A stretch of DNA of 39,289 nt, from the NCBI RefSeq assembly GCF_001659685.2, contig NZ_LXYE02000064.1, positions 1 through 39,289 on the forward strand, written 5' to 3'. This document shows positions 2,161 to 39,289 of this stretch, piece by piece. The stretch comes from Labilibacter marinus (GTDB lineage: Bacteria > Bacteroidota > Bacteroidia > Bacteroidales > Marinilabiliaceae). The notes under the pieces were generated by a model. It was not told the DNA's origin. It did no database searches and saw only the letters and a program-made list of their open reading frames with translations. Numbering within the stretch: position 1 is the stretch's first letter; each line of letters starts with the position of its first letter. A program made the translations under genes and the position numbers.

Positions 2161-3756
2161 TTATTCAATAACTCCAAAAGTAGTTTGTCCGAAAATATTT
2201 ATTTTCAGTTTATCTTCCTCTTTAAATCGTACCGATTTGGATAATGCTTCAGGTGTGTTGAAAATTATTAATATTGCAAGCTTATGTGAAGGAGTAATTT
2301 TATGAAGTTTTTCCTTGCTTAAATTAATGATGAACGAATTTTCGGCACTTCCTATTACATTACCTTCGGAATCTATTTGAGCCGGAAGTATAACATGTTT
2401 ATTTCCTGCAATCAGGCTGTCTAATACTGTTTGTGACTCATCAATAAAGTAGCCTTGCAAGTATGCATCAAGAGGCAGGCTATTCGTTGTTGTTATTTTA
2501 AGTAGCGCATTTTCAACATCGTCAAAACTTTCTCCATCAAAATCGTAAGTTTCCCTTATCGAAATATTTTTAATAGCTCCATGCAAAGGTACTTCTAATA
2601 AAACATTAGCAGCCAGTTTTGAAGTATCTAATACAAATTGTTCATCTGATAGATTATCAGGGTTTACTTTACCTACGATGGAATACAAAATACTATCAGG
2701 TTGGTAATTTAATAATTCAGGTATGTTAGAGTTGCTTTTATCAATATCTATCTGAGTTAGTATAGATTGTCCCTCTATAGTTGGGTGGTTAATAGTAATT
2801 GGATCATCGATAATTTCACCTGTCATAGATAATGGTAATTTGTCATCTGATAAGGAAACAATTCTATCGAAAAGAATATTCATAGGAGCTCCGATTGAGT
2901 TTCTAATTTTAAAGTGAAATTTTGGATCCTCAAGTTGATATATTCCTTTCTTAATTTCGTCGGTATAATTTAATCTAAAGTATTTAGCTTCAGGGGCTAT
3001 GTCTCGTTGAGCAAATGAAGCAGTAAGTTTTGCAAAATTAAGATCTACTAATTCAATACCTAATTGAAAGCCATCGGTACTTGACATTGCCGAGCCATCA
3101 TAATTTAAAGTAATATGTGTGGTGATTTTAAATTTATTGTTTTCTGTGTTAGTTGATGGTCGAAGATTAACTACCGCTTCTTCAAGGCTAGTAGTTTCTG
3201 AATGTGTTTGGGTGCCCGCAGAACTCCAAGCATAATTTAAAGTAACTGGACTATTATTGACTAGTAAAGAATGAAAAACGACCTCTATTTCTCCTGTAAC
3301 CGGAATATTTCCATCTAAAGTGAAATTCATATTACCATCATGTAGTAATATTTCATAAATTCTATCACCGTCGGGACTATCTAGATCAAACGTAAATTCT
3401 TCGGTAGTTTCTAATGTAGCACTTATTCCTGTTGCAGGTATAGTTTCAGATGCTTTAATAAATGTTCCAAAGGTTTGGTTAGGAACAGTAAATATTTCAC
3501 TAGCTGTTTGTGAAAATATGGAAGGTTGTTTATATACAAATATTGTAGTGCCATCATCTGCATAGGTAACATCTAAGTTTTTTTGAGATAGCTCTTTACC
3601 TAAATCACTAATGGTAAAGTCTCCATTAATTAGTGGTAAGGCCCAACTCGAATTCCAGCTATCGCTTTCTATTGAATCTATTTTATTGCTTAGTTCTTTT
3701 ACACACGAGCATAAAAACAAAGGTACAATAACGGCTATTGATGCTATTTTTTTCAT
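2161..3756 (-). CDS. Large lipoprotein of unknown function
   Basis: I place the start at 3756 rather than 3807. From there the protein opens MKKIASIAVIVPLFLCSC, a lipoprotein signal with the likely lipidated cysteine in the FLCSC stretch; the longer reading would bury this signal behind 17 unlikely residues. The mature part (about 513 residues) is rich in beta-strand-like alternation and asparagine/threonine, with no motif I recognise. The opening SDSWNSSWALPLINGDFTISDL resembles the start of several Bacteroidota surface lipoproteins that travel with barrel proteins. It is the first gene of a probable two-gene transcript with the DUF5723-like barrel. A role as a surface or periplasmic partner of that barrel is inference. 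Confidence 0.75.
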   Translation of the reverse strand: MKKIASIAVIVPLFLCSCVKELSNKIDSIESDSWNSSWALPLINGDFTISDLGKELSQKNLDVTYADDGTTIFVYKQPSIFSQTASEIFTVPNQTFGTFIKASETIPATGISATLETTEEFTFDLDSPDGDRIYEILLHDGNMNFTLDGNIPVTGEIEVVFHSLLVNNSPVTLNYAWSSAGTQTHSETTSLEEAVVNLRPSTNTENNKFKITTHITLNYDGSAMSSTDGFQLGIELVDLNFAKLTASFAQRDIAPEAKYFRLNYTDEIKKGIYQLEDPKFHFKIRNSIGAPMNILFDRIVSLSDDKLPLSMTGEIIDDPITINHPTIEGQSILTQIDIDKSNSNIPELLNYQPDSILYSIVGKVNPDNLSDEQFVLDTSKLAANVLLEVPLHGAIKNISIRETYDFDGESFDDVENALLKITTTNSLPLDAYLQGYFIDESQTVLDSLIAGNKHVILPAQIDSEGNVIGSAENSFIINLSKEKLHKITPSHKLAILIIFNTPEALSKSVRFKEEDKLKINIFGQTTFGVIE

Positions 3757-30754: not shown

Positions 30755-30765
30755 TAGATAACACC
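30755..30765 (+). repeat. 11-bp direct repeat, left target-site duplication
   Basis: TAGATAACACC, identical to 31104-31114. It ends exactly where similarity between the two element copies begins. Confidence 0.6.
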
Positions 30766-31103
30766 AAGGAAATTGCATTTAAAGATTGAATCCCTTCAGG
30801 GTTAAACAAACGAATAGTTTTAAAAATCCCTCGGATTGCACCCTGAGCTATTCAAATTGAACATTCGTGGTTTTTAATGTAATAATTCTGAAAGGATTAA
30901 ATCTAAATAGCCATGTACAAAGTGCAGGGTTATGATTCCTATACTATTAACAACCACAAAGTGGTTGAATTTTAAAACCACCTCCCCACTCATACTTCGC
31001 GGTACTCCTCCTTAAAAAAAGGAGGAGAACTCCGCAGCACTTTCCCCTCCTGAATTTTAGGCGGGGTGGTATATTAGATATTTGTATAAATACGATTGCC
31101 GTG
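30766..31103 (+). mobile_element. MITE-like non-coding element, copy 1
   Basis: A 338-bp non-coding element flanked by an 11-bp perfect direct repeat. Its ends are imperfect inverted repeats: 30766-30780 against the reverse complement of 31088-31102, 11 of 15 matching. Copy 2's left end matches that same right end at 12 of 15. The interior is a chain of hairpins: TAATTCT-GAA-AGGATTA, TGTAC-AAA-GTGCA, CAACCAC-AAA-GTGGTTG, and CTCCTCCTT/AAGGAGGAG (31005-31027), nested in ACCACCTCCCC (30977-30987) against GGCGGGGTGGT (31060-31070). It has no transposase, so movement would need one encoded elsewhere. Confidence 0.65.
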
Positions 31104-31114
31104 TAGATAACACC
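31104..31114 (+). repeat. 11-bp direct repeat, right target-site duplication
   Basis: TAGATAACACC, the second copy of the repeat at 30755-30765, one base beyond the inverted end of the element. Confidence 0.6.
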
Positions 31115-39036: not shown

Positions 39037-39289
39037 CAAGGCAATTGCATTTAAAGATTGAATCCCTTCAGGGTTCAACAAACGAATCGTTCAAAAAATC
39101 CCTCGGATTGCATCCTGGGCATTCAAATTGAACATTCGTGGTTTTTATGCAATAATCCTGAGAGGATTAAATCTAAATAGCCCTGTACAAAGTGCAGGCT
39201 TATGATTCTAATACTATTAACAACCACAAAGTGGTTGAATTTTAAAACCACCTCCCCACTCATTCTTCGCGGTACTCCTCCTTAAAAAT
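39037..39289 (+). mobile_element. MITE-like non-coding element, copy 2 (cut by window end)
   Basis: About 93% identical by eye to 30765-31018 (some 17 differences in 253 bases), same orientation. Similarity starts at CAAGG and continues to the last base but one of the window; the right half (GGAGGAG arm and right inverted end) lies outside. Hairpins are preserved: here TAATCCT-GAG-AGGATTA is perfect, whereas copy 1 has a T-G pair at the differing position. Confidence 0.7.

Follow-up and report, generated by a model that had tools for sequence, protein, structure and literature searches.

The window, the 39,289-nucleotide stretch of Labilibacter marinus DNA analysed here, contains a non-autonomous transposon (MITE) of 339 bp that is short and gene-less, with inverted ends, a fixed 10-bp duplication and copies at unrelated sites; the MITE-like nature proposed in the initial annotation is thereby borne out. 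The best explanation, to which we give a probability of roughly 0.86, is that this MITE is moved in trans by a transposase of the ISAs1 family that leaves a 10-bp duplication, and that its passenger consists of two interiors, A and B, fused at ATTTTAAA. The window is contig C61 of a draft genome of 6.03 Mb in 81 contigs, and the features of the locus are as follows.

30755..30764, no strand: left target-site duplication TAGATAACAC, identical to 31104-31113
30765..31103, plus strand: MITE, non-coding, 339 bp, read as a chimera of interiors A and B (BLAST in own genome; full-length C4 copy)
30765..30781, plus strand: left terminal inverted repeat (CAAGGAAATTGCATTTA), one mismatch to CANGGYAAHYGCATTTA
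30782..30968, plus strand: interior A, a chain of short hairpins, assigned by likeness to A-only elements
30969..30976, plus strand: ATTTTAAA, the A/B seam (compared in L062, L006 and the window)
30977..31070, plus strand: interior B, ACCACCTCCCC...GGCGGGGTGGT palindrome with an inner CTCCTCC/GGAGGAG hairpin, assigned by likeness to the B-only element C29:186477-186643
31087..31103, minus strand: right terminal inverted repeat (CACGGCAATCGTATTTA when read inward), one mismatch to CANGGYAAHYGCATTTA
31104..31113, no strand: right target-site duplication TAGATAACAC, identical to 30755-30764
39037..39289, plus strand: second A+B copy, cut by the contig end, 93% identity over 254 aligned positions

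Boundaries, ends and coding capacity

In the window, TAGATAACAC reads identically on both sides of the element, and since a C stands after both copies the repeat appears to be 11 bp long, which is the length given in the initial annotation together with an element of 338 bp starting at 30766. The only other full-length A+B copy, at C4:157086-157434, has a duplication of its own, CGGGTCTAGT (10/10), followed by C at the left and by a different base at the right. Because the C4 flanks differ after CGGGTCTAGT, and because the length across the family peaks at 10, the C is the first base of the element, which leaves a duplication of 10 bp; the element span is real, with its limits corrected to 30765-31103. 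Outside the element and its duplication the window and C4 flanks are unlike, with 6/30 bases agreeing at the left and 11/30 at the right, and no similarity runs past the element ends between these two copies.

The ends are imperfect inverted repeats, as had been described, with 13/17 or 14/20 positions matching, and both fit the end pattern of the MITE family, CANGGYAAHYGCATTTA. The earlier reading that the element lacks a coding frame also stands: its longest stop-free run is 51 codons against a shuffled mean of 56, no frame stands out from the shuffles, and an ORF scan of the element found no long ORF that could encode an ISAs1 transposase. The strand 30765-31104 (the element plus one extra base) folds better than 100/100 shuffles, with z-scores of -5.1 as RNA and -4.2 as DNA, which is expected because the interior is made of nested palindromes.

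Two interiors joined at a seam

On the query 30766-31103, module A extends from 1 to about 211 and module B from about 204 to 338. Interior A is 69-82% alike (by BLAST piece) to A-only elements in Carboxylicivirga marina N1Y132 (L062 in genome G019), G007 (L069), G016 (L128) and Carboxylicivirga sp. M1479 (L124 in genome G068), the two named genomes both belonging to the Marinilabiliaceae according to NCBI. Over 149 positions, interior B is 87% alike to C29:186477-186643, a B-only element within the own genome whose ends and 9/10 duplication are its own. Among the units read, A-only elements with both ends carry duplications of 10/10 in C. marina, 9/10 in G007, 9/10 and 8/10 in G016, 9/10 in G068 and 8/10 in G002. 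B-only elements, besides the one on C29, include C4:20052-20314 (9/10, with an insert within the loop) and two in C. marina (10/10 and 9/10).

The window copy joins the left part of A to the right part of B. The seam sequence ATTTTAAA occurs towards the right-hand end of A-only elements (GAATTTTAAATGC) and towards the left-hand end of B-only ones (ACATTTTAAAACC), and the fusion has neither A's right end nor B's left end. A search for the element in 61 genomes gave matches in 10, the own genome included; among the matches listed in the nine others none covers a substantial part of both A and B, and one (G016) crosses the seam by 14 bases. For each genome, part of the first-look candidates was scored. 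From these comparisons, the window copy combines two interiors into a chimera, and either interior is found by itself elsewhere, in elements with ends and a duplication of their own.

Copies in the own genome

BLAST of 30766-31103 against the own genome returned 27 matches including itself, many of them partial. Seven copies have two recognisable ends, and five of these, two of them A+B, carry a duplication of 9/10 or 10/10, so the expectation of a direct repeat at every copy holds for 5/7 and fails for the other two: the C34 copy (L020) has only a 5/10 duplication, and the C44 copy (L009) has no in-register duplication, although 7/9 bases agree when nine are compared at an offset of one. Other copies are one-ended or truncated (L004, L005, L007, L017, L023, L085), lie at contig ends (e.g. 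39037, C26, C68) or are fragments without ends (e.g. L012).

A+B copies, namely those in the window, on C4 and at the contig end and the truncated ones on C22 and C28, were found only in the own genome. Their pairwise identity is 78-94%, and hence the spread of A+B does not look recent. About 56 bp of B recurs elsewhere in this genome without ends. A half-hairpin, CCACCTCCCC/CTCCTCC, which resembles part of B, is likewise scattered without ends (L011, L014, L018, L019, L022, L024-L027).

The contig ends of C6/C7, C10/C11 and C22/C24 stop within these termini and their 10-bp flanks are identical (L031, L035, L050, L036, L038, L033); these contigs can probably be ordered across their gaps. A collapsed full-length IS was considered for C6/C7 and C10/C11; the visible end matches a third copy, C29:183876, with an interior like the third MITE type described below, so that these contig-end copies may be MITEs too. 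Genes of the GxxExxY family were also considered as cargo or as the mobilising enzyme, and set aside: there are four genomic copies, two of them with stops, and only the one on C68 adjoins an element in the stretches read. At that contig end (L016/L088) the GxxExxY-family remnant has a B-type fragment as its neighbour; to the eye, the stretch separating the two is similar to what flanks the second window copy on the left.

A family of elements with the same ends

A pattern scan found CANGGYAAHYGCATTTAA in 13/71 family genomes, while the reversed-pattern control over the family genomes gave one match in total. Both ends together with a duplication of at least 8/10 are present at 24 distinct loci of 142-351 bp in seven genomes, five in the own genome and 19 in six relatives. 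Four further loci (L098, L100, L103, L123) have a 9/10 or 10/10 duplication and a right end that is shifted or damaged; other loci with one good end yielded no partner end.

Duplications of 4-15 bp were tested at 76 distinct end pairs, and exact ones were concentrated at 10 bp (20 pairs), with two at 9, one at 11, one at 4 and none elsewhere. At least 8/10 flank bases are equal in 35/76 end pairs, compared with a mean of 0.47 and a maximum of 4 when the right flanks were shuffled. The remaining 41/76 fall below 8/10 and may include chance end-like sites and damaged copies.

The interiors differ. Besides A and B, those told apart by eye include a third type (GGGACCCA...GTGGGTAA), a fourth type (TTCGGATATATTATC...) and that of a 142-bp element. 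At E 0.01, BLAST did not match examples of the third and fourth types with the window element; the 142-bp element matches it over 30 bases, at its end. In G034 two A copies are adjacent (L068/L076), and at L112 (G070:C114:34764-34808) two ends stand back to back around a short spacer, forming a 45-bp near-perfect palindrome with no 10-bp duplication. Another repeat (GGGTGTCC..., accompanied in L095 by a matching GGACACCC) lies within or beside L095 (inside 2999-3349), L122, L126 and L381.

Similar end pairs were also found more widely. In the named genomes (117 stretches), 44 end pairs in 33 loci were scored and at least 11 have a 10/10 duplication: eight from Bacteroidota (the C. marina element counted above among them), two from Thermodesulfobacteriota and one from Pseudomonadota. 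The inserts between such cross-phylum ends with exact 10-bp duplications measure 134-582 bp. Viral contigs gave 90 end-pattern matches, and no end pair was found in the 80 of these that were scanned. Plasmid records contained no match to the element at E 1e-5, and Rfam gave two matches, both below the family cut-offs and neither within the element.

Presence, absence and genomic neighbourhood

The A-only element of C. marina (L062, G019:C143) has GGGTTTTAGT on either side and lies shortly downstream of a histidine-kinase gene (HisKA, HATPase_c). In G068, a close relative at 98% protein identity, the allele (L381, G068:C63) has the same left flank, one GGGTTTTAGT and no MITE, and holds a different 426-bp stretch with inverted ends between the aligned flanks. 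The G068 allele thus shows the absence of the MITE together with a single target copy, and not an untouched site. At this one spot, then, the sister species hold insertions with inverted repeats that are unrelated to each other and only a few bases apart. A second presence/absence comparison, with the L120 flank, reached orthologues of only 72-76% identity.

The duplicated site in the window lies 410 bp upstream of a gene whose 391-aa product matches no Pfam family at E 0.001; on its other side, a PHO4-type phosphate transporter has the site 261 bp downstream of it. The transporter gene is present in 9/9 genus genomes. The intergenic DNA of the window locus aligns in 0/8 congeners, and no MITE match was seen in those eight loci.

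ISAs1 as the likely parent family

The initial annotation advised a search for a full IS with the same ends. A 1229-bp element of Aquimarina sp. RZ0 (L208) has a 9/10 duplication and ends with 0 and 1 mismatch to CANGGYAAHYGCATTTA. It carries a broken ISAs1 transposase, whose three ORF pieces each match NF033564 transpos_ISAs1 (7e-32 to 7e-38). The ISAs1 N-terminal domain PF13808 has matches in 10/71 family genomes, at 23 loci. Ten of these loci were examined (L342-L351), and five show inverted ends with an exact 10-bp duplication, four of the CAGGG type and one of the TAGGG type; among these five is an ISAs1 copy in the congener G008 (379-aa ORF, NF033564, 385 bits). No end pair was seen in the remaining five, which include three loci with one end-like site (L346, L349, L350). 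ISAs1 duplications are accordingly 10/10 in five copies and 9/10 in one.

The likeness between the window element and ISAs1 is confined to the ends. Over 17 bp the window ends are on average 70-71% identical to ISAs1 ends (best 82% and 88%), compared with 74% for ISAs1 ends among themselves and 59-76% for the best 17-mers within IS bodies. Since the window match is modest when set against these IS-body 17-mers, it is the pattern of the family, together with the 10-bp duplication, that links this single copy to ISAs1. At positions 18-50, ISAs1 elements are 37% identical to each other and 29-35% identical to the window element; because the likeness stops after about 17-18 bp, the window element is no simple deletion derivative of ISAs1.

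PF13808 has no match in the own draft assembly. PF01609, a model that picks up ISAs1 proteins by their catalytic part, has one match there (DDE_Tnp_1, on C48), and this is a 432-aa IS1380-family transposase whose locus contains no end-pattern site under 4 mismatches. As neither search gave an ISAs1 protein, the local enzyme is missing unless it is hidden in an assembly gap, and the MITEs of this genome look orphaned. An ISAs1 element with CACGGCAAT-type ends, if found in the own genome, would be the local parent.

Proposed mechanism and alternative explanations

A DDE transposase of the ISAs1 family, supplied in trans, would bind the ends of about 17 bp and cut out or copy the element, which would then be joined to a target cut with a 10-bp stagger, repair giving rise to the 10-bp duplication. 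Older A and B elements with the same ends probably recombined at their common ATTTTAAA, and the fusion would subsequently have moved as one unit at least twice, because the exact duplication of the window copy differs from that of the C4 copy.

The initial annotation had instead suggested an element of the IS4 group as the source of the transposase. IS4-group elements make duplications of about 9-13 bp, and in this general respect the length observed would fit. No IS4-group element with these ends was found among the loci reached through the end pattern, however; the only coding element reached in this way, among the matches listed, is the ISAs1 element L208, the ISAs1 copies of relatives show such ends with exactly 10 bp, and the lone DDE_Tnp_1 match of the own genome belongs to the IS1380 family. 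The IS4 proposal thus finds no support among the loci reached through the end pattern and we consider it very improbable, and the ends and duplications of relatives point to ISAs1 as the likely parent family. It is scarcely credible, too, that the element is a structured repeat (REP-like or a regulatory hairpin) that does not transpose, its duplication being due to chance or a by-product. The wealth of hairpins in the interior and the end-less 56-bp pieces of B would agree with such a repeat, but the excess of duplications over the shuffled expectation, the occurrence of the same ends and duplication around unrelated interiors, and the lack of an Rfam family at cut-off all argue against it. 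REP-like repeats are linked to a Y1 (RAYT) transposase and are not known to make a target duplication, whereas the window element has one of 10 bp.

How A and B came together is a separate matter. A nested insertion, or the use of the outer ends of two neighbouring elements, would also give a MITE with a composite interior, and the adjacent A copies in G034 speak for it. The fusion lacks inner ends and its seam falls within an 8-bp sequence common to A and B, which argues against such joining, but a later deletion could have removed inner ends; we regard joining by nesting or from neighbours as unlikely, although worth keeping in mind. Movement in trans by an ISAs1-family transposase, with A and B fused at the seam, is the reading adopted below.

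Comparison with known systems

Draft assemblies of these bacteria are broken up by a group of repeats to which a probable parent family can now be assigned, along with an end pattern and the length of the duplication; three contig gaps in this genome appear to sit in such elements. The group also offers a natural case of one transposase end with several interchangeable interiors and no transposase found in the assembly. Since the same ends with exact 10-bp duplications occur in three phyla, and since unrelated-looking interiors occur within one family, a broader and tentative idea is that the ISAs1-type end of about 17 bp serves as a cross-phylum chassis, in which pairs of ends enclosing nothing of ISAs1 might acquire hairpin repeats time and again, exchange interiors by recombination at A/T-rich sub-terminal seams and survive as orphans until an ISAs1 element, arriving by gene transfer, mobilises them anew; we hold this to be possible but doubtful.

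The closest known system is that of the ISAs1-family IS elements (NCBIfam NF033564), with which the window element shares CAGGGYAAHYGCATTTA-like termini of about 17 bp and the 10-bp duplication, and from which it differs in having no transposase gene and no similarity beyond about 17-18 bp. Among MITEs, MITECca01 of Cardinium is described as short and gene-less, with ends that match an IS (PMC9769881), and MITEPye1 of Paracoccus yeei as short, gene-less and mostly intergenic, with IS-matching ends, direct repeats and stem-loop folding (PMC11578231). These two are tied to IS982 and IS1182 elements (PMC9769881, PMC11578231), while here the family is ISAs1, several unrelated interiors occur and no parent gene was found in the assembly. 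Bacteroidota MITEs with long predicted stem-loops are also known from Porphyromonas gingivalis (BrickBuilt and MITE239/700); they differ from the window element in their IS5-family-like ends and, for BrickBuilt, in the reported 4-bp duplications (PMC4596501).

Orphan MITEs are not new, because the type II MITEs of Anabaena sp. 90 are described as having no matching IS in the genome (PMC3542288). Their ends are tied to no IS, whereas those of the window family match the ISAs1 elements of relatives. TIMEs are described as mosaic non-autonomous elements as well, but their ends are derived from Tn3 (PMC4133298). No report of an ISAs1-linked MITE was found in the open-access literature searched. 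To conclude, the kind of element is known; what is new in detail is the family of its parent, the occurrence of several interiors with one type of end, and the fusion of two of them.
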